Source of the DNA: Solibacillus sp. FSL H8-0538 | GTDB taxonomy: Bacteria > Bacillota > Bacilli > Bacillales_A > Planococcaceae | NCBI RefSeq assembly: GCF_038003525.1 | Contig: NZ_JBBOPI010000001.1 | Coordinates: forward strand, 2,099,001-2,163,000 | Direction: 5' to 3' | Length of the DNA stretch: 64,000 bases | Part shown: positions 18,474 through 61,523 of the stretch, one piece after another | Position numbering within the stretch: the first letter of the stretch is position 1 | Layout: every line of letters begins with the position of its first letter | Notes under the pieces: model-generated | Databases searched by the model: none | What the model was told of the DNA's origin: nothing | The model's input: the letters and a program-made list of their open reading frames with translations, nothing else | Program-made: the position numbers and the translations under genes

Positions 18474-18486
18474 TACATAACCCCCC

Positions 18487-19275
18487 CTATTTATTGTGTA
18501 AGATTTCGATTAAGCAATGCTCCGCAAATGCTGCGCCGCTTTTTTTAATAATTTCCAGTTCTTTGTAGGAGTCTGGATACCTGACAATTTCGCCATGCAA
18601 AGGTACAAAGCTGCGATTTGCATTGTAGAGCATCGTTAAATCCATCAATGAATCCCCCGCTGCGTAATGCTTGTCGAACTGTAATTTCCCCTTAACATAA
18701 TCAACTGCTGCACCCTTTGTTAGAACCTGTGGCAAAACGTAAAATTTCCGCCCGTGAACATAGCTCTCCCAGCCCTCAGAAAGTAAAGCCGTATGTAACA
18801 GCTGAATTTCTTCTACATCAATCGTTGCCTCGTCCAGTGCGAACATATAAAATAAATTTTCAACTTTATGTGTCCGTAAAAAATAAGGTTTACTTAGCTC
18901 GGTAGCAAAGCGTTTTGGAAGCTCGTCAAACGCAAGCGCCTGCTGCTGTATACGCCCGCGTAAATCCGCATCCCACGCCAAGTCGAGCTTGCCATCTTGT
19001 AAAATAATCCCACCATTTGCTACAACGACATATTTTGGTAGGATCTCCTGCTGAAATAGCGTTATGCGATTATACTGTATGAGTGACCTCGTTGTTACCG
19101 GAATAAAATGCGTCGTCTTTTGTAGCTCCTTTAAATCGGCAATTGCGGCTGGAGTCATAAACGACTGCTCCCTGCCCTCAAACCATTCAATACAAATTCG
19201 CTTTTCGGGCGCTGTGTTAACGGTGCGCTCCGAAAAAATTAAGGTTCGGTCTAGATCCGACGTAAAAAGATTCAT
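18487..19275 (-). CDS. HAD-family hydrolase of the Ter module
   Basis: A 262-residue HAD-superfamily phosphatase. Motif I is 'FTSDLDRTLIF' (DxDRT), motif II is Thr in IPVTTRS, a Lys lies in LTKGAAVDYV, and motif IV is AAGDSLMDLTML. The cap is of the Cof/SPP type. Its ATG overlaps the TGA of the StiP-type gene by 4 bp, so the two are translationally coupled. In published comparisons of Ter loci (Anantharaman, Iyer and Aravind) a HAD phosphatase belongs to the predicted nucleotide-like biosynthetic module. The substrate is not known. Confidence 0.85.
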   Translation of the reverse strand: MNLFTSDLDRTLIFSERTVNTAPEKRICIEWFEGREQSFMTPAAIADLKELQKTTHFIPVTTRSLIQYNRITLFQQEILPKYVVVANGGIILQDGKLDLAWDADLRGRIQQQALAFDELPKRFATELSKPYFLRTHKVENLFYMFALDEATIDVEEIQLLHTALLSEGWESYVHGRKFYVLPQVLTKGAAVDYVKGKLQFDKHYAAGDSLMDLTMLYNANRSFVPLHGEIVRYPDSYKELEIIKKSGAAFAEHCLIEILHNK

Positions 19276-20369
19276 TTATTCAGCTCCTTTATAAGCCCAC
19301 AACACGCGTACGTCATATCAGTATATGTCTCCACCTCTACTCCGCGTTCTTTTGCAAGTAAGTAAATATGCGATAAATCATGTTCATACACTGGATTCAC
19401 TAATATTTTCCACGGAACACGGCGTAACAGCACACGTGTCGTTTCACCGATTCCGGGTTTAATATGATGACTATTCGCGATGCCAAAATGCTGCTGAATC
19501 GTACGCACAGATTCCATCCCTTTCCAAGAAGGTTCTGGCTCATTCAAATCAATTTTATCCCCATTATTCGTTACGTTCGAAAACTGAGCCGCAATAGTAT
19601 CAATAAAATAATTCGACATGTCTACATTTTGTAGCTCTTTATAATATTTTGCCCCATGGAAATCACCTGACTTAATGAATGCTGGATTAAGTACTGTACG
19701 ACTGACGAGCCCGGACACAGTTGCATTTAAACATGCGGATGGAATTAAAAAATCATCACGTGTGCCGTAAATTTTCACGCTATGTCCTGGATCTGCAAGC
19801 ACAGCTAAACTGGGTTCAAGCGTGATGCCATCCGTTTCCTGTAGCAGCGCACATGCCTCCGATAGCTCATGAGTAATTGCGCCTTTTCCTGTCCAGCCAT
19901 CGACAAATTGTATTTGGCCAGTTGGATGCTGATGCAAAATATAGCGAATGGCCGTTTCGTCGATTCCACGACCACGAATAATGGAAATAGAATAGTGTGG
20001 GACCGACACCTCGTATTTAAATAACAAATAGCGCTTAATTAAAATTCCAATTGGCGTCCCGGCTCGCGCTAAGCTAACAAGCACCAAATCATTCAAGTTT
20101 TTCAGCGCCATGATTTTTTCGGCAACAGTGACAACTGCTTTTGATAGGCGCTCTGCGTACTGCGTCAAACTATGGTGAAATAGCTGAATATATTCCGCAC
20201 TTGGCTGATACTCTACGGGGAGCATTTCAGCATAATGCGTACCTGATTGAATCCGTTTTTCTCGTTCTGCAGTTTGTATTTCTACGTTCATATGGCTAAT
20301 GTCGCGTAGTAAAAATACAACATCTTCTCTAGCATAACTACCTAGTTGATCCGGTTCATATTTCAGCAT
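19272..20369 (-). CDS. StiP-family protein with PRTase-like and C-terminal Pelota-like domains
   Basis: A 365-residue protein of the StiP-family type found in Ter loci. 'LNDLVLVSLARAGTPIGILI' and 'FVDGWTGKGAITHEL' look like the phosphoribosyltransferase-related core. 'RVLLRRVPWKILV' followed by 'HIYLLAKERGVEVETYTDM' resembles a Pelota-type RNA-binding domain. It is usually annotated as a cysteine protease, but a transferase reading fits the neighbourhood better; this is inference. AGGAGGAG 7 nt before ATG 20369 selects this start over 20390. The PRTase/TRSP stop lies 13 bp upstream. Confidence 0.75.
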   Translation of the reverse strand: MLKYEPDQLGSYAREDVVFLLRDISHMNVEIQTAEREKRIQSGTHYAEMLPVEYQPSAEYIQLFHHSLTQYAERLSKAVVTVAEKIMALKNLNDLVLVSLARAGTPIGILIKRYLLFKYEVSVPHYSISIIRGRGIDETAIRYILHQHPTGQIQFVDGWTGKGAITHELSEACALLQETDGITLEPSLAVLADPGHSVKIYGTRDDFLIPSACLNATVSGLVSRTVLNPAFIKSGDFHGAKYYKELQNVDMSNYFIDTIAAQFSNVTNNGDKIDLNEPEPSWKGMESVRTIQQHFGIANSHHIKPGIGETTRVLLRRVPWKILVNPVYEHDLSHIYLLAKERGVEVETYTDMTYACCGLIKELNK

Positions 20370-20382
20370 CTCGTCACTCCTC

Positions 20383-21720
20383 CTAGTCATTTGTAAACGT
20401 AATAATATGAACGGAACGACACTGCTTTTGCAATGCCGCTACGAGCTCACGTAGCGCCCCTTCATCTAAAATCCTTTCAAACATTAGGAAAATATCATCA
20501 TAGTCATGCGTTCCGATATTGTATAAGTAATTAATAACTCCAGGAAATTCTGGGCTATGAAACACAAATTTATTGTAAATAAGTGACTTTTCATGTGCAT
20601 AAATCGGGCTTCTCGTCGTCGATTGATAATACACATCCGGTCCCATTTGAGATGCCACATACATCGGGTTATACATAAACTCTCCTGTACCAATAACTAA
20701 GCATTTCTTCCCTGTTCGCATTGCCACAAGCTTCGGAATAACAGTCTGTAGTCGCAGCGACATCTCCCCTTGCTCGATAGACGTTAAACTAAAGCGACCA
20801 CTTCCCATGTAGTACGGAATCTTATACTCCTCAAGTTGTGAACATAATGAACTCTCTTGCACTAGCTCAGATGCTACATAGTCTGCTATTGAAAAATAGT
20901 GCAACACATCCGTTTTCTCCCCAATCAAAAGCGACTGTGGCTCAGGTAATGTACCAATATTTTTTGCATCAAAATGGCCGCTCATCAATGCCACGCTATG
21001 AATCTTTATATTTAGCTCCTGCGCTAGTTGTTGGACTGCTTCTTGGTGCTCTGCATTGCGCCAATCCAAAATAGCTACTAAAGTAAACACTTTTAAATGT
21101 GGAAAACTGGTATGCAGCTGACGAATAATATTCAAATTTGTTTTGCCAGTTGTCATTTCATCGTCTACTAATACGACTTCTCCGTCACCATCAAAAAACG
21201 CAGGATTATGCAAATACACACGGTGACTAGAAGCATGGGAGTGCTCTTCTTCAAATGTAATAACTGGTGCCCGACACGCGAGTTGTTCACGTGTCGTATG
21301 CACAAACTGTACATCCCCTGTAAATGCATTAAAAAATGCGTGCCCAAGTGCGGTAGCCGTTTCAGCAAAGCCAATAATTTTCAGTGGCGTTGCTGAATTT
21401 AGTGGTGAATTTCTAATTTTTTCAATTGTCTCCTGCAACTGCTCTTGCGTTTTTAATGCTTCGACAATAGCTGCTGTCTGTGCGTTTTCTTGCTGCTGTC
21501 GTAGTTCTATAAAGCGACGTGCTAGTAACTCACTCGTTAGAATTGGTAGCTGTGGCGCAATCGCTAAATGCTTGCCAAGCACTTTACTAACGAATAGGAA
21601 GCGACGTTTTTCATTAATGCGCATCGCCATATCAAATAGCTGATGTTCTTCAAATTGATACGGATTGTTGACCAGTTTTATGGATGCTTCAATCTTATCT
21701 AAAATGTTGTAACTACTCAC
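20383..21720 (-). CDS. Phosphoribosyltransferase-domain protein with C-terminal TRSP domain
   Basis: A 445-residue protein. The PRPP-binding loop is 'EVVLVDDEMTTGKTNLNIIR' (about residues 187-206), with the upstream 'IIGFAETATALGHAF' typical of Ter-linked PRTases. The C-terminal third has 'MGSGRFSLTSIEQG' and 'CLVIGTGEFMYNPMYVA', features of the TRSP domain. The start is GTG 21720, overlapping the aldolase stop (GTGA). Families of this kind are thought to make a nucleoside-like product in the Ter stress system; no reaction is proven. Confidence 0.85.
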   Translation of the reverse strand: MSSYNILDKIEASIKLVNNPYQFEEHQLFDMAMRINEKRRFLFVSKVLGKHLAIAPQLPILTSELLARRFIELRQQQENAQTAAIVEALKTQEQLQETIEKIRNSPLNSATPLKIIGFAETATALGHAFFNAFTGDVQFVHTTREQLACRAPVITFEEEHSHASSHRVYLHNPAFFDGDGEVVLVDDEMTTGKTNLNIIRQLHTSFPHLKVFTLVAILDWRNAEHQEAVQQLAQELNIKIHSVALMSGHFDAKNIGTLPEPQSLLIGEKTDVLHYFSIADYVASELVQESSLCSQLEEYKIPYYMGSGRFSLTSIEQGEMSLRLQTVIPKLVAMRTGKKCLVIGTGEFMYNPMYVASQMGPDVYYQSTTRSPIYAHEKSLIYNKFVFHSPEFPGVINYLYNIGTHDYDDIFLMFERILDEGALRELVAALQKQCRSVHIITFTND

Positions 21721-22835
21721 GCTTTCACCTGCCCCATTAGTAAGCTCAAATAATTTACTTGCGGATTATACACCCCGTAAACTTGTGCACGCATTGAGAT
21801 TCGTTGTGCCCATAACACATGTGGATTCATTTCGTTCATTTTGTTATTGTAGGCACTTTTTTTGACGCCTATTTGCCCATTTGAATGGTGTAAAACTTCA
21901 ACGGCATCCAAATATTCCTCGTGCGTCACAACATAAAGTGCATTCACTGCCGTAATATGTGTCGGGTGAATGATTGTCTTGCCAATAAGCCCGTTTAACT
22001 GATCAAGTTGAACTTCACGGATTAATCCTTGCAGTGGTACATTGGTAGCAATCTCAGAATCCTCACTCGAAAAGTACTCCCAAACTGGACCGGACAACAC
22101 AAAATCCATATCCGCACGATTAAATAGATTAATTATATCTGTCAAGCAGTCTCGGACAGGCGCAATATCATAAATTGTCGTATTTACTTTGCGTCGTATA
22201 CCGTATAAACCACTAAAATCTGTCGCACCTACACGAATATTTAAAATATAATCATAATATTCGGTTAATATAGTTTTGATTTGTAACAATGCTTCCAATC
22301 TTGTTTCTTTATACATAATGTCTGCTGACTCTAATATCGGCATTGCATACAAACAGTAGCCAAGTTCATTTTGTTGTGCAACTAATTCTAAAAAGGCACG
22401 GCCATTAGACGCCGTAAATTTAGGTAATACATAACCCGTGAGAACATGCTGCGAGTCTCCGAGAAGCTCAATCATTTCCTTAAGTTGCTGCGGACTGCGC
22501 ACACGCATAAAAAGCAACGGTAACTGCTCAATTGTCAACTGTCCATTCTTCATCGCATCGTCTAGCTGACGGAATGTCTTTACTAAATTTTCTTTACCAG
22601 CAGCCACTTGCAAATCACCTAACGCATCCTCTAAATCAATGACAATGGATGTTAAAGATGAGAATTTCCGATTTATTATATCTGCCGCAATGGACTGTTT
22701 AATTGCAGGCATATAAAGCGCTGCACCTACACAATAACGTAGCTGTTCTTTTGGAGTATATTTTGTAAAATCAATAGGTTGTTTAAAAAATACACGATCC
22801 ACTTCAATTTGGTCGTCCAGCTGAAAAAGGCGCAT
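21717..22835 (-). CDS. CitE-like HpcH/HpaI aldolase family protein
   Basis: A 372-residue member of the citrate-lyase-beta/HpcH-HpaI aldolase superfamily. 'GAALYMPAIKQSIAADI', 'TSIVIDLEDALGD' (metal-binding Glu/Asp), 'LFMRVRSPQQL', 'YVLPKFTASNGR', 'IRVGATDFSGLYG' and 'IGKTIIHPTHI' match the family pattern. It heads the second half of the Ter locus and is coupled to the PRTase gene by a 4-bp overlap. In this context it probably makes or breaks a C-C bond in the unknown Ter metabolite. Confidence 0.85.
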   Translation of the reverse strand: MRLFQLDDQIEVDRVFFKQPIDFTKYTPKEQLRYCVGAALYMPAIKQSIAADIINRKFSSLTSIVIDLEDALGDLQVAAGKENLVKTFRQLDDAMKNGQLTIEQLPLLFMRVRSPQQLKEMIELLGDSQHVLTGYVLPKFTASNGRAFLELVAQQNELGYCLYAMPILESADIMYKETRLEALLQIKTILTEYYDYILNIRVGATDFSGLYGIRRKVNTTIYDIAPVRDCLTDIINLFNRADMDFVLSGPVWEYFSSEDSEIATNVPLQGLIREVQLDQLNGLIGKTIIHPTHITAVNALYVVTHEEYLDAVEVLHHSNGQIGVKKSAYNNKMNEMNPHVLWAQRISMRAQVYGVYNPQVNYLSLLMGQVKA

Positions 22836-22858
22836 ATCCTCATCTCCTTAAAGTATTA

Positions 22859-22889
22859 AAAAACTACTGCTGATAGGGCAGTAGTTTTA
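22859..22889. terminator. Hairpin between the two halves of the Ter locus
   Basis: AAACTACTGC and GCAGTAGTTT form a stem flanked by A- and T-runs. It lies between terC and the aldolase gene and could end or attenuate transcription from the TerD/TerC genes, giving the biosynthetic module lower expression. Confidence 0.7.
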
Positions 22890-22921
22890 GTTTGTGAATT
22901 TAACTAGTGTGACAATTGCAC

Positions 22922-23665
22922 TTACGCGACTTTCTTTTTGTTCATATAATGCACAACGAACGTGCCAGCAAATGCTAAAATAAGTACAACGAAAAATGCG
23001 TAATGTGATATGTGAACACCAAATACGCCGAGTAGCATTTTCAGTGCAATAATTCCGATTAAAATGAATGCTGTGTTTTCAAGCTCTGGTATACGATCAA
23101 TCAACGTTACGAAAACACCAGCAATTGTACGCATCATTAAAATCCCAAGCATACCACCGACTAATAGCACCCATACTTTGTCTGAAATTGCAAAGGCCGC
23201 TAAAATAGAATCTACAGAAAAGGCAATGTCCATCAGCTCTACTGAAATAACCGTAGCCCAGAACACACCAAAAATCCTTACGAGTGGCGTATTTTTTTTG
23301 AATTCCTTTGCATCATCGTCCTGAGCTTTATTTATGAAGTGTGAAATACAAATCCAGCCTAAATAAGCAGCACCAAACAGCTTCACATACCAGAATTTCA
23401 CTAAGTAAACACCGATACCTATGAATATAAAGCGGAAGACATAAGCCCCAATCATTCCATAAAGTAATGCTTTTTTACGTTGTTTTTCCGGTAGATGCTT
23501 AACAAGCACGGCTAAAACAAGCGCATTATCTGCAGATAATAATCCTTCGATAATGACTAATGAGAAAATTAACCCCCATGAAACAGGATCCGATAATACT
23601 TCTCCCCACATTTGCCAATCAAAGAACATGGCATATGTTTCAAAAATTTGCTTAATTACGTCCAC
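22922..23665 (-). CDS. terC: TerC-family integral membrane protein
   Basis: A 247-residue membrane protein with about seven segments, most similar in layout to B. subtilis YceF. The conserved acidic motifs are present: 'IEGLLSADNALVLAVLV' and 'ELMDIAFSVDSILAAFA', each placing Asp/Asn/Ser inside the membrane. TerC proteins such as MeeF/MeeY export Mn2+ and support metalation of exported enzymes; TerC also interacts with TerD-type proteins. It follows the third TerD gene by 32 bp. No yybP-ykoY riboswitch is visible upstream, so control is probably with the ter operon. Confidence 0.9.
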   Translation of the reverse strand: MDVIKQIFETYAMFFDWQMWGEVLSDPVSWGLIFSLVIIEGLLSADNALVLAVLVKHLPEKQRKKALLYGMIGAYVFRFIFIGIGVYLVKFWYVKLFGAAYLGWICISHFINKAQDDDAKEFKKNTPLVRIFGVFWATVISVELMDIAFSVDSILAAFAISDKVWVLLVGGMLGILMMRTIAGVFVTLIDRIPELENTAFILIGIIALKMLLGVFGVHISHYAFFVVLILAFAGTFVVHYMNKKKVA

Positions 23666-23697
23666 CTATAGACCTCCGATGATTACGTTAAATTTGA

Positions 23698-24276
23698 TTA
23701 AACACTTAGACCATAAGCGTTAACTAAAGCTCCTAGACCACCTTGATAGCCTGAACCGATTGCATTAAATTTCCAATCTGAACCATGACGATAGAGTTCA
23801 CAAAATACTACTGCTGTTTCAATTGAGAAATCTTCGCCTAAATCAAAGCGCAGTACTTCAGTTCCTAAATCTTCATCTACTAAACGCACGAATGCATTGA
23901 CAACTTGTCCGAAATTTTGACGACGGCCTTCTGCATCATGAATCGTTACTGTAATTGCAATTCGATGAACATCTGAAGGGACTTTATTTAAGTGGATTTT
24001 AATTTGTTCATCATCCCCGTCGCCCTCACCAGTACGGTTATCCCCTGTATGTTCAACAGAGCCCTCAATACTTTTTAAGTTGTTGTAGAAAATGAAATCA
24101 AGATCTTGACGACATTTGCCCTGGTCATTTAATAAAAATGCACTTGCATCTAAGTCAAACTCAGCCCCGCCATCAAAGTTTTTCACATCCCAGCCAAGTC
24201 CAATAATAATATTTTGTAAAGCAGGATTATCTTTTGTTAAATCAATCCGTTGCCCCTTGCTTAATTGAATCGCCAT
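23698..24276 (-). CDS. TerD-family calcium-binding stress protein (YceE-like)
   Basis: A 192-residue TerD domain protein. The opening '[20 protein letters not shown]', 'IGLGWDV', '[11 protein letters not shown]' and the Ca2+-binding segment '[17 protein letters not shown]' are canonical, as are '[16 protein letters not shown]' and the end '[18 protein letters not shown]'. TerD proteins bind Ca2+ and act at the membrane in tellurite, phage and envelope stress responses. Third of three consecutive paralogues, 29 bp after the previous one. Confidence 0.95.
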
Positions 24277-24305
24277 CAGACATTCTCCTCTCTCTATTTG
24301 TATTA

Positions 24306-24881
24306 TTAGCCTACTTGTAAACCAAAGTCATTACATAATGCAGCAAGTCCACCTTGATAGCCTGAGCCAATCGCAGCAAACTTCCACTCGCCGCTATGAC
24401 GATATAATTCACCTACTACTAACGCTGTTTCAATGGAGAAATCTTCGCCTAAATCGTAACGGATTAGCTCACTTGATTCATTGAAAATACGAATATAAGC
24501 ATTAGATACCATACCGAAATTTTGACCGCGATTTTCCGCATCATGAATTGTTACGGCAAACGTAATCTTTTCAATGCTTGCTGGGACAGCTGCTAGATCG
24601 ATTTTTACTACTTCATCATCCCCATCGCCATCACCTGTTAAATTGTCACCTGAGTGCACAACTGAACCGTTGCCACCAACTGTATTATTATAGAAAATAA
24701 AGCCTTCTGGTCCAGCTACCTTACCGCTTGCTTCTAGTAAAAAGATTGTTGCGTCTAAATCGAATTCATTACCGCCGTCGTATTTATTGACGTCCCACCC
24801 TAAACCTACATTTACCTTTGTCAAACCTGGATTTGTTTTTGTTAAGTCTACTTTTTGTCCTTTTGCTAATGAAACTACCAT
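24306..24881 (-). CDS. TerD-family calcium-binding stress protein (YceD-like)
   Basis: A 191-residue TerD domain protein: '[20 protein letters not shown]', '[20 protein letters not shown]', the Ca2+ segment '[17 protein letters not shown]', '[16 protein letters not shown]' and '[18 protein letters not shown]'. All acidic ligands are kept. Second of the three tandem paralogues, which probably arose by duplication; 27 bp from the first. Confidence 0.95.
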
Positions 24882-24908
24882 AAAAAATCCCTCCCTATTT
24901 TTATATAT

Positions 24909-25514
24909 TTAATATCTTTTGCAAATATCACTAATTGAAGCATCTTGTGTGCCTGTTCCTACTGCCGCAAACTTCCATTCATTGTCATGACGATAGATTT
25001 CACCTGTTATAAGCGTCGTTTGGTCTGAATAATTATCTGACAAATTATATTTTAGTAACTCCTCTTTAGTAGCAGGGTTTACAATACGAATATACGCGTT
25101 TTGGAGCATGCCAAAGTGTTGCTTACGACGTACACAATCATAAATATTTACGACAAAAATAAGCTTATTGTAGTTTTGCGGAACTGCATTTAACTCGATG
25201 TAAATTGTTTCGTCATCGCCGTCACCATCTCCTGTACGATTGTCTCCCGAGTGTGTCACCGAGTCATTCGCACCTTTTAAATTACCGAAGTATACGACAT
25301 CCGTCTTATCTTGTAGTCGGTCATTTTGAAGCATAATAACAGACGCATCGCAATCAATGTCAATCGGTGTTTTACTGCCAAGAAGTCCGCCTAATAATCC
25401 TCCTGACTTTTGTTGTACTGGATCCCATCCGAGGCCAACTATGATTTTATTTAACCCGGCATTGCCCTTTGTTAAATCAATCCGCTGACCTTTTTGCAAA
25501 TTAATAGACACCAT
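24909..25514 (-). CDS. TerD-family stress protein with inserted loop (YceC-like)
   Basis: A 201-residue TerD domain protein. After '[20 protein letters not shown]' and 'VGLGWDP' it carries the insert 'QQKSGGLLGGLLGSKTPIDI', as YceC does. The Ca2+ segment '[17 protein letters not shown]' is intact. GGAGGATTTA precedes ATG 25514; an in-frame extension to 25547 is rejected. It ends 'GTGTQDASISDICKRY', shorter than the paralogues. First of the TerD trio, 81 bp after yceG. Confidence 0.95.
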   Translation of the reverse strand: MVSINLQKGQRIDLTKGNAGLNKIIVGLGWDPVQQKSGGLLGGLLGSKTPIDIDCDASVIMLQNDRLQDKTDVVYFGNLKGANDSVTHSGDNRTGDGDGDDETIYIELNAVPQNYNKLIFVVNIYDCVRRKQHFGMLQNAYIRIVNPATKEELLKYNLSDNYSDQTTLITGEIYRHDNEWKFAAVGTGTQDASISDICKRY

Positions 25515-25595
25515 TAAATCCTCCCAACAGAAAATATTTAACATCACTTCTTAATTTTACATATTTTAGCATCAATTAACAAACATTCATTCCTA

Positions 25596-53741: not shown

Positions 53742-54680
53742 TTATAATAATAGTAATTTCCCATGCTTCCAGTCAAACGTACTGTAATCATTGGCGATAA
53801 ACGTTGACGTGAAAATCGTACGGGCATCGCTTACTAAAGTTTGTAGGTCATGCGCTAGGAAACGTGCGCTAATATGGTTCAGTATGAGCGCTTTTGCATT
53901 AGCGTCATGAGCAATCCATGCCGCCTCAGTATTCGTGGAGTGTCCGTATTGAGCAGCAAGATGAATCGTTGCGTGATCAAAGGTTGCTTCGTGGATAACA
54001 ATGTCTGCATTCTCGCTTAGCTTTTGCGCGTTGACACAATATTTTGTATCGCCTAACACGGTCAGAGTAAAACCAGGCTTCGGCGGAGATGTAACGTCTG
54101 TACTATACACAATCGTACCATCATCTAAAGTAATATTACGTCCTGCCTTTAGTTGACCAAGAAGCGGACCTTTTGGCACACCAAGTTCTCTAGCTTTATC
54201 AATTAATAATTCACCTGCTAAAGATTTTTGTTCAATACGGTAACCAAAGCATTCAATGACATGCTCCAGCGGCATCGCAGTTACAGTAAATTGCTCATCC
54301 TCAAAAATAATACCTTCCTGCACTTCAACGAATTGAACTGGATATGATAAATGTGTTTTTGATAGCGCAAGTGTCATTTCGACCCATTCTTTTAAACCTT
54401 TTGGACCGTAAATTGTGACTAGCTCGTCTCCTCCTTGAAAGGACCGAGAACTTAAAAAGCCAGGTAGACCAAAAATATGGTCACCATGTAAATGCGTGAT
54501 AAAGATTTTATCGATTTTGCGTGGCTTAATCGTTGTATGAAGGATGCGATGCTGTGTTGCCTCACCGCAATCAAATAACCAAATGGTGCCGCGTTCTTCT
54601 AGCAACTTCACTGCAAGAGCACTCGTATTGCGCTCCTTTGATGGCATTCCTGCTCCAGTTCCTAAAAATTGTAGCTGCAT
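53742..54680 (-). CDS. rnz: Ribonuclease Z
   Basis: A 312-residue tRNA 3'-end endonuclease of the MBL fold. 'THLHGDHIFGLPGFL' is the diagnostic metal motif; 'FLGTGAGMPSKERNTSA' opens the protein; 'YSTDVTSP' , 'VLGDTKYC', 'IHEATFDH' and 'NHISARF' give the remaining ligands. Normal length for the short bacterial form. It removes 3' trailers from tRNA precursors lacking encoded CCA. Single gene. Confidence 0.95.
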   Translation of the reverse strand: MQLQFLGTGAGMPSKERNTSALAVKLLEERGTIWLFDCGEATQHRILHTTIKPRKIDKIFITHLHGDHIFGLPGFLSSRSFQGGDELVTIYGPKGLKEWVEMTLALSKTHLSYPVQFVEVQEGIIFEDEQFTVTAMPLEHVIECFGYRIEQKSLAGELLIDKARELGVPKGPLLGQLKAGRNITLDDGTIVYSTDVTSPPKPGFTLTVLGDTKYCVNAQKLSENADIVIHEATFDHATIHLAAQYGHSTNTEAAWIAHDANAKALILNHISARFLAHDLQTLVSDARTIFTSTFIANDYSTFDWKHGKLLLL

Positions 54681-54833
54681 ATCGTTCTCTCCTGTCTGTT
54701 TTTCGTATGATTATTATATGAATGAAGGCAGGGGTTTGTCTATTGTTAGTGGTCGTTAGGCTTTTATTCGGCGGTTGGAGCGGTTTATTCAGAGCCTCAA
54801 TATTTTTATTCAGAACTCCCCTCTCTTCAAACG

Positions 54834-54866
54834 AAAAGAAAACCACCTCGCATACCTGCGAAATGG
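54834..54866 (-). terminator. Weak terminator after the FtsZ-like gene
   Basis: ACCATTTCGCA and TGCGAGGTGGT pair with mismatches on the minus strand, followed by TTTTCTTTT. Confidence 0.45.
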
Positions 54867-54870
54867 TCCA

Positions 54871-55563
54871 TCAAATATTGTTATAGTTAATGATCACCTG
54901 TTCAATCGCCCGCGCGACAGTCAGATCTTTTAATTTAAAGTAATCAATTATGGATTCTTCCTTGTGCTCGGCTGCCAACACATTGACCTTGCTAAACTTT
55001 TGCAATCCCGCTAATCCTTTTTCCGCTTGGTGGCGACGTTTTTTACCTTCAAACATAGCTGGCATCGTTACTATCGCTTCCATTGAAATGCGATGACGTT
55101 TTGCGAGGCGGGCAATAAAAGGTGCTACACCTATACTTACACTACCGCCCATGCAGGCTACAAGTATGACATGATCATACGCACTCATTGCCTCAATAAT
55201 TTCCTGCTCATAAAACTCTGCTCGCGCTAATGTTTTCTCTGGGCTATTATTACCAAATTGCTCCTCCGCAGTTGTGAAAAATAATATTTTGCCATGAGGG
55301 CCTTCTATGTAATCTGGTACGTTGTCATAATAATCTTCAGTAATAGCTGCCGCGTCACCAATACCATGTGCCTTTAGTAAAACATCTGCTGCACTCGTTT
55401 CAGTCGGAACTTGCCCAACAATAATGGCACCTCGTTCTGCTTGATATAATGTTTTATGCGATTCAAATAATAATAATGGTACTTTTCTCGAATAATTCTC
55501 GCGGTAGCATTCGCCGATATTAATGCCAGCTGAGCCCAATAAAATGACTGCAATGTTCTTCAT
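54871..55563 (-). CDS. Short, divergent FtsZ/tubulin-like protein
   Basis: A 230-residue protein I relate to the FtsZ GTPase domain. Landmarks in order: N-terminal strand and Gly loop 'IAVILLGSAGINIGECY' (4-20) like the T1 region; 'PLLLFESHKTLYQAERGAIIVG' like FtsZ 'FIAVNTDAQAL...'; 'YDHVILVACMGGSVSIGVAP' (129-148), matching the strand and tubulin signature (MGGGTGTG in FtsZ) in altered form; 'IVTMPAMFEGKKRRHQAEKG' (164-183), matching 'VVTRPFxFEGxxRxxQAxxG'. It ends after the helix equivalent to H8, so the T7 loop with its catalytic Asp and the whole C-terminal domain are absent. ATG 55563 has 9 nt spacing from GGAGG. Single gene; role unknown. It may bind nucleotide or cap FtsZ-type polymers, but that is speculation. 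Confidence 0.7.
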   Translation of the reverse strand: MKNIAVILLGSAGINIGECYRENYSRKVPLLLFESHKTLYQAERGAIIVGQVPTETSAADVLLKAHGIGDAAAITEDYYDNVPDYIEGPHGKILFFTTAEEQFGNNSPEKTLARAEFYEQEIIEAMSAYDHVILVACMGGSVSIGVAPFIARLAKRHRISMEAIVTMPAMFEGKKRRHQAEKGLAGLQKFSKVNVLAAEHKEESIIDYFKLKDLTVARAIEQVIINYNNI

Positions 55564-55782
55564 CTGCAAGTCCCTCCTTCCTCTAGTCTTATCATAGTAT
55601 ACATGTAGCTTTATTGTACAGTTACTGACTATATTATACTCATTCTATGCATCACTCAACACATCGTATATATGGTTTTTGCAATTTTCTTTTTAGGTAT
55701 CATTAGTCTTATATTTTACTATTTTATTATCCAGATTCAAAAAACACACGAGAAGTGAATTTACCTTTTCTAATTAACTAAA

Positions 55783-55816
55783 AAACTTGTAAAATCGCTA
55801 TGATTTTACAAGTTCT
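55783..55816. terminator. Terminator of the HAD phosphatase gene
   Basis: AACTTGTAAAATC and GATTTTACAAGTT pair perfectly and run into TTTTTTAG on the minus strand, 10 bp after the stop codon. Confidence 0.85.
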
Positions 55817-55825
55817 TCTTAACTT

Positions 55826-56560
55826 TCAATATGCAACGCTAAGAGCACGAATGGTTTGTGCCACATGAGCTTCTGTTGTAAACTGCGTGGCATGAGCTTT
55901 CGCGATAGCATTATCCCCTACACAAATACTTTCTTTTGCATAATTAAACATCGAAATATCATTCGTGTCATTACCAAATGCGATAAATTCGTCTTCCTGT
56001 AAACCAAGCTTTTGGAGACCAGACCATTTATGTATACCAGCCGGGCTAATATCTAAAATGCCCTCATCGCCGTGCTTATGAACCGTTACGGCTAACCGTT
56101 CAATACGCTCCTCTATATCCTTACTTTGCGTAAACAACACAATTTTCACGATGCCATCGAGTTCCTCAAGCCTCACATTGCTTGCGGTTTTTTGCGGATC
56201 TAAGTTGCGGAAAATCGGATGCGACTTATCTCCGGTAAAACTATAATCCCAGCGGCCATCTACTAAATAAGGAAGACGAAATTCTTCAATAAGTTCTAAT
56301 AGTGCCTGCTTTGCGTCCTCCGGAAAACCCGCTACGTCAATTTCATTATTTTGATATACAAAAACACCATTGCCACCAACCATTCGAAAGCCGTGAAAGC
56401 TTTTCGGAAGAACCGGTAAAATATCACGAATTGGTCGGGCTGATGCAAAAATTACTTCATGCCCTGCTTCAACACAGCCATTTATAGCTGTACAAATATC
56501 CGCACTTAACGGCTGTCCTTTGAAGCAAATCGTGCCATCTAAGTCAAAAATAAACTTCAT
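55826..56560 (-). CDS. Cof-type HAD phosphatase
   Basis: A 244-residue HAD phosphatase. Motif I is 'FIFDLDGTI', motif II Ser in 'IFASARPIRD', Lys in 'GIHKWSGLQ', motif IV 'AFGNDTNDISMF'. The C2B cap (about 80-185) marks the Cof family, which hydrolyses sugar phosphates, flavin or thiamine pathway phosphates. It lies 66 bp after thiE and may be read from the thi operon, so a pathway link (for example HMP-PP or ThMP hydrolysis, as with Cof) is possible but unproven. ATG 56560 has the best spacing from GAGG. Confidence 0.85.
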   Translation of the reverse strand: MKFIFDLDGTICFKGQPLSADICTAINGCVEAGHEVIFASARPIRDILPVLPKSFHGFRMVGGNGVFVYQNNEIDVAGFPEDAKQALLELIEEFRLPYLVDGRWDYSFTGDKSHPIFRNLDPQKTASNVRLEELDGIVKIVLFTQSKDIEERIERLAVTVHKHGDEGILDISPAGIHKWSGLQKLGLQEDEFIAFGNDTNDISMFNYAKESICVGDNAIAKAHATQFTTEAHVAQTIRALSVAY

Positions 56561-56626
56561 CATCGTCACCTCAAAACAATTATACTTGAAGGGTGTTTTG
56601 AGGTGTATGATGAATTGCAATTTCTA

Positions 56627-57250
56627 TTAATATTGTCCTAAGTTAGCGATCGTTTGCTGCCTATTTGTACTTTGACAAATTGTTGAAATAACCGCAACGC
56701 CATCTGCACCGGCCGCACGTGTTGCCGATGCATTCGCTATTGTAATTCCTCCAATTGCAACAATCGGAAAATCAGGATAAAGTACACGCGCTTCGTGTAA
56801 GAACGTAACCCCTGCTGGAGCTTTCGCGTCGGCTTTAGACTGCGTAGCGAAAATTGGTCCAATGCCTACGTAATCTGCACCACCTTCTACGGCTAAATCT
56901 AGTTCTTCCTTTGTATGTACGGACACACCGACGATTTTCCCTAAAAACTGCGCGCGAATTTCCGCAAGCGCCTGATCACCCTGCCCAACATGCACACCAT
57001 TAGCTCCTAGTTTGCGTGCGAGTTCTACATCATCATTTACGATAAATGGCACATTATATTCCGCACATAATGCCTGGCAAGCGCGGGCAAATGCTTCTAA
57101 TTCATCGCCAACTAGTGCATGTTCACCCTTTTCCCGAAGTTGGAACATTGTAATTCCTGCCTGTAGCGCATCTTTTATCACGGCTAAAGGGGCATGTTGA
57201 CAGTTCGGCGTACCCATGATGAAGTACACTGATAAGTTACTGCGCTTCAA
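56627..57250 (-). CDS. thiE: Thiamine-phosphate synthase
   Basis: A 207-residue TIM-barrel enzyme that couples HMP-PP with THZ-P to give thiamine phosphate. 'FQLREKGEH', 'FIVNDDVELARKLGANGVHV', 'GQGDQAL', 'GVSVHTKEE' and 'YVGIGPIFATQSKADA' are the family landmarks. The start is TTG 57250 with GAGGTG 7 nt upstream, overlapping the end of thiD by 14 bp. Last thi gene of the operon. Confidence 0.95.
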   Translation of the reverse strand: MKRSNLSVYFIMGTPNCQHAPLAVIKDALQAGITMFQLREKGEHALVGDELEAFARACQALCAEYNVPFIVNDDVELARKLGANGVHVGQGDQALAEIRAQFLGKIVGVSVHTKEELDLAVEGGADYVGIGPIFATQSKADAKAPAGVTFLHEARVLYPDFPIVAIGGITIANASATRAAGADGVAVISTICQSTNRQQTIANLGQY

Positions 57251-58058
57251 TGATTTTCACCTCACACATTTGCTGCTGTTTATAAGCAAAGTGATTCGTT
57301 GGCCCGTGACCGTGTCCGATATTGAGCGGATTGGCAATCGCTAGTTGGACAAATTTTTTGGCTTCAATTATTGCCTCACGTAGCATCATCCCTTGGCCTA
57401 AAAAAGCGGTAATGGCTGCTGAAAATGTACAGCCTGTGCCATGTGTTTGGTTTGTCTCAATACGTTTACTTTGAATGGCTAGTTGTTTACCATCCGCAAA
57501 GAAAACGGTATCAATTGCATAATCGCCACTTAAATGACCGCCCTTCATCACGACACAGCCTACACCCATTGCCAAAATTTGCTGAGCTGCTTGGGCAATA
57601 TCCGCTTCCGTACGAATCGTTAAGCCGGTAATAACCTCAGCTTCTGGAATATTTGGTGTCAGCACTGTTGCTAGCGGTAATAGCTTAGTAGTCAATGCTT
57701 GCACAGAATCCTTTTGAAGTAGCGTCGCGCCGCCCTTTGCAATCATAACTGGATCGACAACTAATTGAATATCCTTACCTTCTAACGTTTCCGCCACTGT
57801 CCGAATAATATCTGCTGAAAATAGCATGCCTGTTTTCACTGCGCACACTGGCATATCACGGAATACCACGCTAATTTGCTGCTGAATAAAATCGGCAGGT
57901 ACAGGGAAAATGCGCTCCACACCTAATGTATTTTGTGCCGTTAATGCTGTAATCGAAGACGTTCCAAAAACGCCAAGCTCTTGAAAGGTTTTTAAGTCCG
58001 CCTGAATGCCGGCGCCGCCACCACTATCTGAGCCGGCAATTGTCATCACAATGTTCAT
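57237..58058 (-). CDS. thiD: HMP/HMP-phosphate kinase
   Basis: A 273-residue ribokinase-fold enzyme phosphorylating hydroxymethylpyrimidine twice. 'IAGSDSGGGAGIQADLKTF' and 'THGTGCTFSAAITAFL' (anion hole and catalytic Asp region replaced by the usual GTGC) are typical, with 'VVDPVMIAKGG' between. Overlaps thiM by 4 bp and thiE by 14 bp, so translation is coupled. Confidence 0.95.
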   Translation of the reverse strand: MNIVMTIAGSDSGGGAGIQADLKTFQELGVFGTSSITALTAQNTLGVERIFPVPADFIQQQISVVFRDMPVCAVKTGMLFSADIIRTVAETLEGKDIQLVVDPVMIAKGGATLLQKDSVQALTTKLLPLATVLTPNIPEAEVITGLTIRTEADIAQAAQQILAMGVGCVVMKGGHLSGDYAIDTVFFADGKQLAIQSKRIETNQTHGTGCTFSAAITAFLGQGMMLREAIIEAKKFVQLAIANPLNIGHGHGPTNHFAYKQQQMCEVKIIEAQ

Positions 58059-58807
58059 CCGATGTCACCTCGCGAAATTTTGTATAATGCATTTAACACT
58101 TCGACTTGGAACGAACCTAGCTTGCCTACTACAGCTGCACTAGTTGCGACTTCCTTATAGTCCTGTAACACCTGTTGTAAGTTACATAGTGCATCACCTT
58201 CTAGCGTAAGTGCCGCTGCACAAATTGCGCTAAGTAGACAGCCCGTTCCCGTTACTTGCGTCATTAGGGCATTTCCACCAGAACTATACAACGTCTTTTC
58301 ACCATCCGTTAACAGATCTGTTGGACCTGTAACGATGACTAGGCATTTGTACTTGTGTGCTACCTGCTTGGCAATTTCCTCTATATCCATTTCGCCATCG
58401 CCGCTGTCAACTCCTTTAGACTGCCACGGTACTCCCGCAATTGCTGCAAGTTCCCCAGCGTTACAACGAATTAAATGAAATTGAACTTTTTCTAAAAGCT
58501 CTTGCACCGTTTCTCTTCTATAAGCAGTAGCCCCGACACCAACTGGATCCAACACAACCGGAATACCGCGACCATTTGCGGTTTGACCCGCTATAAGCAT
58601 TGCTTCTCGCGTTCGTGCATTCAGCGTACCAATATTAATAAGTAGTGTATCGACTATGCTTGCCATATCTTGCATTTCAGCTACTTCATCCGCCATAATC
58701 GGCGACGCACCAATTGCGAGTAATCCATTCGCTGAGAAATTCGTCACAACATAATTTGTAATGCAGTGAACAAGTGGCTGTTGCAGACGGATTTTATACA
58801 TAGTCAT
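58055..58807 (-). CDS. thiM: Hydroxyethylthiazole kinase
   Basis: A 250-residue kinase that phosphorylates salvaged thiazole alcohol. 'VHCITNYVVTNFSANGLLAI' near the N terminus, 'PVVLDPVGVGATAYR' and 'VTGTGCLLSAICAA' (catalytic region; Cys in GTGC) are the family motifs. Overlaps tenA by 14 bp. Together with thiD and thiE it lets the cell build thiamine from salvaged moieties. Confidence 0.95.
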   Translation of the reverse strand: MTMYKIRLQQPLVHCITNYVVTNFSANGLLAIGASPIMADEVAEMQDMASIVDTLLINIGTLNARTREAMLIAGQTANGRGIPVVLDPVGVGATAYRRETVQELLEKVQFHLIRCNAGELAAIAGVPWQSKGVDSGDGEMDIEEIAKQVAHKYKCLVIVTGPTDLLTDGEKTLYSSGGNALMTQVTGTGCLLSAICAAALTLEGDALCNLQQVLQDYKEVATSAAVVGKLGSFQVEVLNALYKISRGDIG

Positions 58808-59477
58808 AATGCTTCACCTCATCTTGCCAGTTTTCAACTGTCCACGGCATTTCCCAAAATTTCCATTCGTAATAGCAGCTCTTCTCAAAATGCTGTTTAA
58901 AAATCGCTAGTTTTCCCGGTTGCTCTAATACATATTGATCCATTTTTACTTTTTGCTTTTCAATCGTCGCTTTAAAATCTTCGTTACTATACATCGCAAT
59001 CCATTCCTCGTACAATTTCACACCTGGCTTGGCATCACGGTATTTCTCGCCAATTTCCTGATACAGCCACGGACATGGGAACATTGCCGCAAACGCTTCC
59101 GCTACGTCCCCATTTTGTGCTGCATTATACATATGACTCACATAATTGTACGCAGCCGGTGCTGGTACAAAATTATCAAGCTCCTCATCTGTCACATTAA
59201 GCTCACGGAAAACAGTACGGTGTAATTCAAGCTCTGCTTCATTAATACCACGTGCTTGTCCAAGGAAATACTCGATTTCTTCATTTGTCACAGCTTTTGT
59301 CGCTGCAATCGCTAACACCTTTGTATAATGCTTTAAATAATACGCATCTTGCATTATGTAAAATTTAAATTTTTCTAACGGTAATGTCCCGTCAACAATT
59401 CCTTTTACAAAAGGATGGTTGAAGCTCCCTTCCCAATAAAGATCTGTTTCTTGTCTTACTTGTTCACAAAATGACAT
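58794..59477 (-). CDS. tenA: Thiaminase II / aminopyrimidine aminohydrolase
   Basis: A 227-residue helical enzyme that releases HMP from degraded thiamine (aminomethyl-pyrimidine). 'FNHPFVKGIVDGTLPLEKFK', Asp44 in 'IMQDAYYLKHYTKVL', catalytic Cys135 in 'FPCPWLYQEIG' and a late Glu in 'YEWKFWEM' match B. subtilis TenA. It lies 14 bp after thiT. Confidence 0.95.
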   Translation of the reverse strand: MSFCEQVRQETDLYWEGSFNHPFVKGIVDGTLPLEKFKFYIMQDAYYLKHYTKVLAIAATKAVTNEEIEYFLGQARGINEAELELHRTVFRELNVTDEELDNFVPAPAAYNYVSHMYNAAQNGDVAEAFAAMFPCPWLYQEIGEKYRDAKPGVKLYEEWIAMYSNEDFKATIEKQKVKMDQYVLEQPGKLAIFKQHFEKSCYYEWKFWEMPWTVENWQDEVKHYDYV

Positions 59478-59491
59478 TGATTTGTCCCCCT

Positions 59492-60073
59492 TTATGATTT
59501 CACCTCAACATAGTGCATCGGTGTTTGAATAAGCTGTGCCTTCGTCGTAAGCAAGGTCACACTACAAATGAGTGTTAAAATAAGTGACGGAATCGAATGA
59601 GAGGCATTGTAAATAATTGAATACAGCCAAACATTTTGATCTCCTGCATAGGCAGCAAAGAAAATAACACCTGATATAACGTGTACGCTAAACTTTAAAA
59701 ATCCACTTACAAGTACGCCAATGACAACATAAAACGTGACAACTTTCTTTTTCGCCAAACGATTTGCTTTTAGAATTGGCTGACGAAAAACACCGATTAC
59801 ACCAACAACCGCACTAGCCAAGCAATAATCTAAACCTGCCTGTGCCCAGTGATAAATCGTACCGCCCGTCGCAATTCCGAGTACACCAATAATAAATCCC
59901 GTCGTCATCCCAGCGCCTACACCCCAGCGCAAGCTCATGATAATAATCGGTAACATCATCAAGCTAAGCCCACCGCCCTGCGGCATAAACGTAAATGTTA
60001 ATAGATCAAAAATAAGCCCAATACTCGCAAAAATTGCAATTTCTGTCACCATACGTAGTTTATTATTTCGCAA
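59492..60073 (-). CDS. thiT: Thiamine transporter ThiT (ECF S component)
   Basis: A 193-residue membrane protein with six helices, the thiamine-binding S component of an ECF transporter. 'GLIFDLLTFTFMPQGGGLSL' and 'LPIIIMSLRWGVGAGMTTGF' and 'WAQAGLDYCLASAVVGVIG' match ThiT (Trp and Tyr/Glu-type residues of the thiamine pocket). AAGGAGG is 8 nt before TTG 60073; longer frames to 60193 run into hairpins of the leader and are rejected. It first needs the shared EcfAA'T module encoded elsewhere. Confidence 0.9.
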   Translation of the reverse strand: MRNNKLRMVTEIAIFASIGLIFDLLTFTFMPQGGGLSLMMLPIIIMSLRWGVGAGMTTGFIIGVLGIATGGTIYHWAQAGLDYCLASAVVGVIGVFRQPILKANRLAKKKVVTFYVVIGVLVSGFLKFSVHVISGVIFFAAYAGDQNVWLYSIIYNASHSIPSLILTLICSVTLLTTKAQLIQTPMHYVEVKS

Positions 60074-60157
60074 AATTTCCACCTCCTTTTCGGAGACGCA
60101 AGTGCAAATTAGTAAGACACATCTCCTAAAAAATTGTGCGAGCTGATATCTTTTTTT

Positions 60158-60197
60158 TATGTGGTTAAGAAAGTAGAACTTTCTTAACCACATAAAA
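60158..60197. repeat. Two-hairpin dispersed repeat, copy 5 (second hairpin)
   Basis: TTATGTGGTTAAGAAAGT and ACTTTCTTAACCACATAA pair perfectly. With GCGAGCTGATATC just before (60138-60150) it looks like a member of the repeat family at 3850, 31645, 35328 and 42638. In the thi mRNA it forms a third hairpin between riboswitch 2 and thiT. Confidence 0.65.
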
Positions 60198-60233
60198 ACG
60201 CTTCTTTGTACATGACAAAGAAGCGTTTTAAAT
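60196..60233 (-). terminator. Terminator controlled by TPP riboswitch 2
   Basis: Minus-strand AAACGCTTCTTTGT and ACAAAGAAGCGTTT pair and run into TTTTAT, just after the second aptamer. Confidence 0.85.
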
Positions 60234-60237
60234 CATT

Positions 60238-60316
60238 GCTCCCTACGTCAGTATTAACTGTTCCAGGTTCTAAGGGTCAGGTTTTAACCTTCTCAACACC
60301 ACAGTGTCCCCCCGCA
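60238..60316 (-). promoter_or_regulatory. TPP riboswitch 2 (thiT-proximal)
   Basis: The minus strand has the THI-box blocks: GTTGAGAAGG (variant of CTGAGA), ACCCTTAGAACCTG and GTTAATACTGACGTAGGGAG. Relative to the upstream copy it has a 2-nt insertion (GA) after GAACCTG, in the junction next to P4, and small P3 differences. It is followed by its own terminator, so it should act by transcription attenuation. Confidence 0.92.
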
Positions 60317-60418
60317 ATTAAAATATTCAATAGAAAAATGCAGTCACGCTTCGTTACACAAGAACTAAAAGCAAATTCAAGTCGAACGTGCGAATGCCAA
60401 GACAATTAAGTAACATAA

Positions 60419-60451
60419 AAGGCTCTCCAATAAGTTGGAGAGCCTCATGTA
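60419..60451 (-). terminator. Terminator controlled by TPP riboswitch 1
   Basis: Minus-strand AGGCTCTCCAA and TTGGAGAGCCT pair and run into TTTTATG. Confidence 0.85.
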
Positions 60452-60485
60452 CAAAGAATAAGCGTATATTACGCGTATGTACTTC

Positions 60486-60562
60486 GCTCCCTACGTCAGT
60501 ATTAACTGTCAGGTTCTAAGGGTCAGGTTTTAGCCTTCTCAACACCGAAGTGTCCCCCCGCA
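60486..60562 (-). promoter_or_regulatory. TPP riboswitch 1 (promoter-proximal)
   Basis: Same THI-box blocks as the second copy, with the usual GAACCTGACAGTTAATACTG spacing. About 170 bp upstream of the second aptamer. With its own terminator it forms a two-input, same-ligand control region, as described for the tenA leader of B. anthracis. Confidence 0.92.
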
Positions 60563-60695
60563 AATATTTTAATATCGTAACTATAGCACTGATTGAATTT
60601 TTTAGCAATTAAGACTGGCGCTTCATCAAATTTCTACTTGACGAAAATAATTCTAAAAATAAGACGAGCGATTTTGTCAAATCACCGAAAAGAAG

Positions 60696-60770
60696 ATACG
60701 ACTTATCCAAAAATAAGTGCAAAATGGATAGGATACTACTTAATGTCGCTTATTTGCGAATAAGTCGTAT
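60696..60770. repeat. Long inverted repeat upstream of the thi leader
   Basis: Arms at 60696-60717 and 60749-60770 pair as ATACGACTTAT / ATAAGTCGTAT and AAATAAG / CTTATTT, with a 4-nt internal mismatch, around a 31-nt loop. The flanks also resemble each other (GCGATTTTGTC on one side, GCGATTTGGTCG on the other). It occupies a 350-bp gene-free stretch between the riboswitches and mhqD. Confidence 0.75.
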
Positions 60771-60917
60771 AGCGATTTGGTCGAATATGCGAATCATGTG
60801 TTAAAAATTCAGTCACGTAAAGCTAGACTCCGATTGATTACAACTGTTGAAGATTGGAAACATGAAAAAAAATGATGATCATAGCGAGAACAGATGTCAG
60901 TATTGTACCTTCTATTT

Positions 60918-61523
60918 TTAAAATAAATTAGTGTACCATTCTTTTGCTGCTTCTACTTCATTCATCGTTAATTGGTGGCCAAAGTTTTCCCATTTCACTG
61001 ATACAGAAGCATTTGCATCTTCTAATAACTGTTGTAAATCTATTGATTCCTGTTGCGGGCAAATCGGGTCATTTACACCAGCAGCAATAAATACAGGCGT
61101 ACCTTTTAAATCAGGTAATTCAATCCCGCGTCTTGGTACCATTGGATGATGCAGGATTGCGCCTTTTAATGCATTATTAAAATGGAATAACAGACTTGCT
61201 GCAATATTCGCACCGTTTGAGTAGCCGATTGCGACAACGTTCCCTCGGTCAAAACCATATTCTACAGCCTTTTCATCTAAGAACGTATTTAGTTCTTTCG
61301 TACGCAAAATTAAATCTTCTATATCAAATACACCTTCTGCTAAACGACGGAAGAATCGGGGCATGCCGTTTTCCAACACATTGCCGCGCACACTCAGAAC
61401 AGCTGCTTCTGGGTCAACGATGTCTGCTAATGCTAGTAGACCATTTTCATCTCCACCTGTGCCATGTAATAATAGTAAAACTGGTTTTTTGGGATTTGTT
61501 CCTTGTTTATAAATATGGTGCAT
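60918..61523 (-). CDS. mhqD: MhqD-like carboxylesterase/hydrolase
   Basis: A 201-residue alpha/beta hydrolase. 'LLLLHGTGGDENGLL' is the oxyanion region, 'AIGYSNGANIAASLL' the nucleophile elbow, Asp in 'AAGVNDPICP', His in 'ENFGHQLT'. Resembles B. subtilis MhqD, part of the quinone-stress set. It follows mhqO by 30 bp and is probably cotranscribed. Confidence 0.85.
   Translation of the reverse strand: MHHIYKQGTNPKKPVLLLLHGTGGDENGLLALADIVDPEAAVLSVRGNVLENGMPRFFRRLAEGVFDIEDLILRTKELNTFLDEKAVEYGFDRGNVVAIGYSNGANIAASLLFHFNNALKGAILHHPMVPRRGIELPDLKGTPVFIAAGVNDPICPQQESIDLQQLLEDANASVSVKWENFGHQLTMNEVEAAKEWYTNLF

Follow-up and report, generated by a model that had tools for sequence, protein, structure and literature searches.

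Results

The window, a stretch of 64,000 nucleotides from the genome of Solibacillus sp. FSL H8-0538 (3.93 Mb, 2 contigs), carries on its minus strand, at positions 54871-55563, an ftsZ-like gene for a protein of 230 residues, with the ATG at 55563-55561 and the stop codon at 54873-54871. As judged from the PF00091 match, an AlphaFold2 model and VIA alignment, the protein comprises the N-terminal, nucleotide-binding domain of FtsZ and helix H7, with no T7 loop and no C-terminal domain. Ahead of the ATG lies the ribosome-binding region GGAAGGAGGGACTTGCAG (55564-55581, minus strand), with a good ribosome site, GGAAGGAGG. Directly 3' of the stop codon a terminator-like hairpin of 13 pairs is followed by TCTTTTCGTT (54840-54869, minus strand); two terminator-like sites are found in 54600-55900, against a mean of 0.8 in shuffled sequences, and promoter-like matches around the gene are not above chance (4, with 3.6 expected). 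The normal ftsZ of the genome (383 residues) lies about 1.2 Mb away, 3' of an open reading frame resembling ftsA, and a PF00091 search of the genome (E<=1) returns normal FtsZ, the FtsZ-like protein and none else. A sequence-only reading of the locus had placed here a stand-alone gene of this length with a good ribosome-binding site, and we find it as described.

The next gene downstream is rnz, encoding ribonuclease Z (53742-54680, minus strand; TIGR02651, 356 bits with a cut-off of 293), separated by 190 bases that include the hairpin; a HAD hydrolase gene and thi genes are the other near neighbours. In two genomes of genus g14, G031 and G190, rnz is a conserved neighbour and follows 6 bases past the ftsZ-like stop when counted to a GTG, or 15 bases past it in G031 if the likely ATG is taken instead. 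Directly 5' of the ftsZ-like gene these two genomes carry a gene whose best NCBIfam match is MhqD, at a score under its cut-off. The mhqD-like gene is adjacent in G031, yet in the window it lies farther upstream, separated from the ftsZ-like/rnz pair by the HAD gene and the thiamine genes (55826-61523); this difference is a rearrangement of the junction between genera. Within the genus of G031 the ftsZ-like gene is missing at rnz in 14 of 16 genomes, in several of which mhqD is directly upstream of rnz, and the members from genera g16 and g10 have neighbours other than rnz. In both g10 genomes the gene sits between two lipoprotein-like genes (L034, 696-2690; L044, 602-2886), the downstream one having a PepSY domain in L034, a setting distinct from that at rnz yet conserved. 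The ftsZ-like gene is an accessory gene. Dating of the insertion on the rnz tree gives 2 changes, with a single origin in 34% of bootstrap trees, and is compatible both with one gain at rnz followed by losses and with two gains. Elsewhere in the window, at 17856-25547, the translations indicate a TerD/TerC (tellurite/stress) operon-like cluster that also includes phosphoribosyltransferase-like and HAD-like genes.

At the level of sequence, the window protein resembles FtsZ far beyond chance expectation: PF00091 matches residues 3-196 over profile positions 1-179 of 190 (50.4 bits, cut-off 33, E=4.3e-13), and the best phmmer match to solved FtsZ chains has E=8.7e-10. The FtsZ equivalog TIGR00065 scores 63.7 bits, under its cut-off of 295.2, and PF00091 is the sole domain found, the FtsZ C-terminal domain PF12327 being absent. 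The AlphaFold2 model, computed from the aligned sequences of the seven family members without any canonical FtsZ, has a pLDDT of 85.4 and a pTM of 0.84, with low-confidence stretches at residues 62-66 and 68-70 (pLDDT below 50). The 50 Foldseek matches listed for the PDB all involve FtsZ, by itself or in a complex, the best having E 1.1e-10, and VIA-align places model residues 1-230 onto residues 11-204 of B. subtilis FtsZ 2vxy (Z 23.0, about 185 aa, 2.1 A). The predicted fold, together with the Pfam match, assigns the protein to the FtsZ/tubulin superfamily, with no new fold; the model is FtsZ-like, not a non-tubulin Rossmann fold. Its last element is helix H7 (residues 205-230; 54874-54951, minus strand; helix 205-229 by DSSP), which runs to the end of the protein and carries an FxxxD motif (F209, D213) retained in five of the seven family members. 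Because helix H7 of E. coli FtsZ is described as reaching residue 201 (PMC8456036), the window protein would consist of the N-terminal domain plus H7 and stop at about the start of T7; alignment and model agree with the earlier suggestion that it ends before that loop.

Of the 261 genomes in the sample from the same taxonomic family (19 genera; probably Planococcaceae/Caryophanaceae), seven have a member of the ftsZ-like group, counted as a protein scoring far above ordinary FtsZ; these 261 genomes also form the order-level sample. The carriers belong to four genera: the window genome (g1), G031 and G190 (g14), G015 and G033 (g16), and G073 and G071 (g10). Identity to the window protein is 47-48% for the g14 pair, 21-26% for the g16 pair and 21-32% for the g10 pair, alignment-dependent. 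With the start codons chosen in this analysis the relatives measure 186-230 aa, and relatives that have FEGKKR and a similar GGxVS loop are present. PF00091 is above its cut-off also in G031, G190, G015 and G033; Pfam gives no match for either g10 protein. By hhalign, the other groups align to the nearest three members with E values of 6e-18 (g16) and 7.3e-15 (g10). The g10 model, built from its own two sequences only, has a pLDDT of only 60; it matches FtsZ with E 3.8e-8, aligns with 1w5f (Z 15.9, 175 aa, 2.7 A), and has PhuZ and CetZ among its fold matches. Beyond the family we used a threshold of E<=1e-14, which members scoring under ordinary FtsZ would escape: it returned 1 of 398 genomes in the class-level sample, the window's own, and 22 of 398 in the phylum-level sample, its own and 21 others, whose open frames span 358-415 aa and which we take as ordinary FtsZ. 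Nine of these 21 were fetched, and MGGGTGTG is present in all nine and the T7 pattern in eight. Two scans of the genome contig set gave no relative, and the known relatives in G031 and G190 were also missed there.

Second copies of a different kind were seen in genus g3, where four genomes (G203, G217, G248, G245; loci L045, L046, L047, L051) hold, beside normal FtsZ, a second, shorter FtsZ with open frames of 326-356 aa, an intact MGGGTGTG and the T7 motif; it is a paralogue distinct from the ftsZ-like family. In addition, G018 (g19) has two FtsZ matches.

Is the gene merely a remnant of ftsZ? Within genera, dN/dS is 0.135 for G031-G190 (0.075 for the neighbouring rnz of this pair), 0.195 for G033-G015 and 0.142 for G073-G071, and the ftsZ-like family is under purifying selection. 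Between the window gene and G031/G190, dS is saturated (pS 0.77-0.86, pN 0.33-0.35); purifying selection presumably acts on the window copy itself as well. A decaying duplicate or truncated pseudogene would account for a protein shorter than FtsZ and for the patchy spread (7/261). However, the T7 residues (N208, D210, D213) are absent in all seven members, with similar end points in the alignment, and the dN/dS values of the three pairs of relatives lie at 0.14-0.20; on these two grounds we reject the pseudogene, and family-specific conserved motifs and the good ribosome site also argue against it, making it extremely improbable. A split FtsZ with a separate C-terminal half was likewise rejected, as PF12327 has one over-cut-off match per genome, the normal FtsZ, in each of the seven carriers, and no stand-alone C-terminal domain passes the cut-off there. 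Three PF12327 matches fall under the cut-off, one of them in an aldehyde dehydrogenase-like open reading frame of G000 and the others in G015 and G071.

In FtsZ, loops T2 and T3 are described as contacting the beta and gamma phosphates, T4 the alpha and beta phosphates, T5 the ribose, and the T6 asparagine and H7 the base (PMC8456036). We followed these elements in a MAFFT alignment numbered by the window genome's own FtsZ, the T2/T3 part of which is loosely aligned. The T4 loop reads MGGSVSIG (residues 138-145; 55129-55152, minus strand), whereas all 60 loci collected through FtsZ matches have an MGGGTGTG frame, with frames picked by the pattern GGG[TS]G[TS]G and a few loci representing the same gene twice. 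The signature GGGTG(S/T)G is replaced by GGSVSIG in the window protein and by GGAVSSA, GGGTTSH and GQASGEL in relatives. Translation, alignment and PF00091 uphold both the altered signature loop and the order of FtsZ landmarks that had been noted from the letters. The T2 loop is ESHKT (residues 34-38; 55450-55464, minus strand), with HKT conserved in 5 of 7 members. Its His36 aligns with D46 of FtsZ, which is His in all seven, and N44 has become E, G or S; in S. aureus FtsZ, D46 and N44 are reported to hold Mg-bound waters, and D46A alone to suppress assembly (PMC8936486). The T3 region, LFFTTAEEQFGN (residues 94-105; 55249-55284, minus strand), is identical in the three closest members; its QFG is shared by five of the seven (the three nearest and the two from g10), and T3 is largely deleted in g16.

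The base and ribose side presents another picture. T5/H5 reads TMPAMFEGKKR (residues 166-176; 55036-55068, minus strand), and residues 171-183 are FEGKKRRHQAEKG; E139 is retained in every member, R143 is R or K in every member, and F183 and D187, like N25, are kept in 5/7. The T6 residue N166 is retained only in the two g16 members and is E or D in the window protein, G031 and G190. In the window protein, 2 of 4 FtsZ-invariant positions remain in T1 and 3 of 8 in T4. Six contact positions, for which we presume the exact numbers other than N25 and R143, are retained at 5/6, 5/6, 5/6, 6/6 and 6/6 in the g1, g14 and g16 members and at 1/6 in both g10 members. The same five keep 13-22 of 89 other FtsZ-invariant positions, taken from a reference of 48 FtsZ sequences that are not all distinct (Fisher p 0.007 to 3e-5, values that are descriptive, the six contacts having been grouped after the alignment was seen). 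N25 and R143 are among the contact positions given for FtsZ (PMC8936486). Given the contact roles of the individual loops in FtsZ and this pattern of retention, the base/ribose side is, by alignment, mostly kept and the phosphate side rebuilt, with T2, T3 and T4 rewritten.

Nucleotide binding may be weak, changed or lost, because some of the glycines of T1 and T4 are missing and Glu or Asp replaces the T6 Asn in the window protein and its two closest relatives. Outright loss would be expected of a pseudo-GTPase scaffold, in which the FtsZ fold would serve as a protein-binding platform. Three observations are compatible with such a scaffold: every member has lost part of the signature glycines, the three nearest no longer have the T6 Asn, and the g10 pair retains 1/6 contacts. 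Most contacts are nonetheless above background in 5 of 7 members, window protein included, in a grouping made post hoc, and the novel conserved residues are concentrated in the phosphate loops, so we regard the scaffold as unlikely.

Neither FtsZ nor tubulin has a complete GTPase site until the next subunit joins, which ties nucleotide chemistry to filament formation. For FtsZ, hydrolysis is reported to depend on contact between T7 of one subunit and the nucleotide bound by the adjoining one (PMC7010359). An isolated N-terminal domain is reported not to suffice for GTP hydrolysis (PMC8456036), an account with which the earlier expectation that such a protein could not hydrolyse GTP by itself would agree. 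On the N-terminal side, FtsZ-FtsZ contacts are assigned to the H6-H7 loop (region A), T5 (B), T3 (C) and H1/H2 (D) (PMC8936486). The window protein keeps 0 of 9 FtsZ-invariant positions in region A, where 6 gaps mark a deletion, 0 of 6 in D (T2-H2), 2 of 10 in C (T3) and 3 of 5 in B (T5). By this alignment, deletion or rewriting has affected three of the four contact regions. Interface retention does not differ significantly from what overall divergence would give, with p 0.1 for the window protein and p values of up to 1 for the others; despite this, the deletion of region A and the change of D46 are specific.

These surfaces bear on the possibility that the protein modulates FtsZ by mimicry. 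It would bind the C-terminal (plus-end) face of host FtsZ, docking there as the N-terminal face of a next subunit, and would cap or sequester it, blocking since T7 and the C-terminal domain are missing. All seven carrier genomes also contain a normal FtsZ, region B (T5) is partly retained with R143 as R/K throughout, and the C-terminal face is described as the plus end and a common target of SulA, MciZ and MinC (PMC11938149); moreover, N-terminal-only FtsZ has been called dominant negative, in an account that offers this as a likely explanation (PMC6050046). On the other hand, region A has been lost by deletion and regions C and D have been rewritten; D46, needed for the assembly of S. aureus FtsZ (PMC8936486), is His in all seven members; and inspection by eye of the neighbouring genes in the loci read revealed no division gene. 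The cap or regulator first put forward from the sequence stays as the main rival, if a rather unlikely one, and in the form of a simple cap it is weakened, because one contact region is deleted and two are rewritten.

The same early proposal included a sporulation-specific filament factor. Spo0A is matched in all seven hosts, and the window genome and both g14 carriers (3/7) combine it with a long SpoIIE match of about 305 bits, under the curated cut-off of 491. This role is disfavoured, and we hold it to be very improbable, because a full-length SpoIIE match was not found in 4 of the 7 hosts (g16 and g10); in addition, no sporulation gene was recognised among the neighbours in the loci read, and the filament surfaces are changed or missing.

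Discussion

What could half of a GTPase site do without the filament that completes it? Because half of that site is present and most of the docking surface is changed, we infer that the protein is a monomeric, non-polymerising, nucleotide-binding switch that is derived from FtsZ and acts on a partner protein, a reading to which we give somewhat less than an even chance. The protein would bind a guanine or related nucleotide as a monomer and would form no FtsZ-type filaments. Hydrolysis of GTP by the inter-subunit mechanism of FtsZ would be impossible for it, and any chemistry would rest on its own conserved set, namely H36, the AEEQFGN stretch of T3, E172 and R176. Its likely task would be that of a nucleotide-dependent switch or sensor on the partner. 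Taken together, the data suggest that a tubulin-type domain has been turned into a non-filament switch or a regulator of FtsZ. A selected family that has the nucleotide half alone would test whether, and how, this domain works by itself; if it acts on FtsZ, it would represent a natural dominant-negative control of division made from FtsZ. The protein is small and confidently modelled, which makes the question easily testable.

We also considered a mobile origin. A phage or plasmid source was rejected: tblastn returned one phage and one plasmid record, each covering under half of the query. The phage record, MT835570.1 (L099), labelled Bacteriophage sp. and obtained from a human faecal sample, encodes an FtsZ of full length and bacterial type within a high-GC contig and has the look of a piece of bacterial chromosome deposited under a phage label. 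NZ_CP048757.1, a 41-kb Campylobacter jejuni plasmid record, has ftsZ annotated at 23772-24122, an unusual gene to find on a plasmid. No relative was confirmed in the viral contig scan, PADLOC gave no defence-system match for the three of the seven proteins tried, and PHROGs, with six of the seven tried, matched the window protein alone, and weakly (E=0.016).

Among the matches listed and in the open full-text literature, with subscription papers outside the scope, we found no description of an N-terminal-only FtsZ family. It is possible, though doubtful, that the family forms an undescribed branch of the tubulin superfamily that keeps the nucleotide half only, has its polymerisation surfaces removed and its gamma-phosphate side rebuilt around the His and AEEQFGN, and would act as a filament-free monomeric switch or enzyme. 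By the features tested, the protein is none of FtsZ, FtsZl1 and FtsZl2. The latter two are described as diverged FtsZ-like proteins, typically found beside conventional FtsZ (Makarova and Koonin 2010, PMC2875224), and share both divergence and this co-occurrence with the ftsZ-like protein. FtsZl1 is further reported as lacking identifiable T6-H7 elements, a likeness, whereas it differs in carrying GGGTG(S/T)G and, past the FtsZ-like domain, a coiled coil plus a helical C-terminal domain, in the 1051 aa of its type protein and in neighbours that are often vWA, OmpA or kinase genes (PMC2875224); the window protein has 230 aa with nothing past H7, and its neighbours are rnz, HAD and thi genes. 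FtsZl2 is said to have all motifs, T7 included, and about 300 extra C-terminal residues (PMC2875224), features that the window protein does not share.

TubZ, PhuZ and CetZ belong to the same tubulin superfamily as the window protein, and their solved chains listed have 311-360 residues. TubZ is a weaker sequence match than FtsZ (phmmer E=0.26 versus 8.7e-10), and the best BFVD match of the window protein is a phage tubulin (E 4e-6). The plastid-division protein ARC3 is a plant protein with further domains. It is described as stromal, with an FtsZ-like domain, and as needed for placement of the division site (PMC4593956). The nearest solved relative, by sequence and by fold, is FtsZ itself (TIGR00065; PF00091 plus PF12327). 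Compared with FtsZ, the window protein is without T7, the C-terminal domain and the C-terminal peptide, its T2, T3 and T4 loops are rewritten and its H6-H7 loop is deleted; what it shares with FtsZ is the N-terminal fold, the order of elements up to the end of H7, FEGKKR and the base-side FxxxD.
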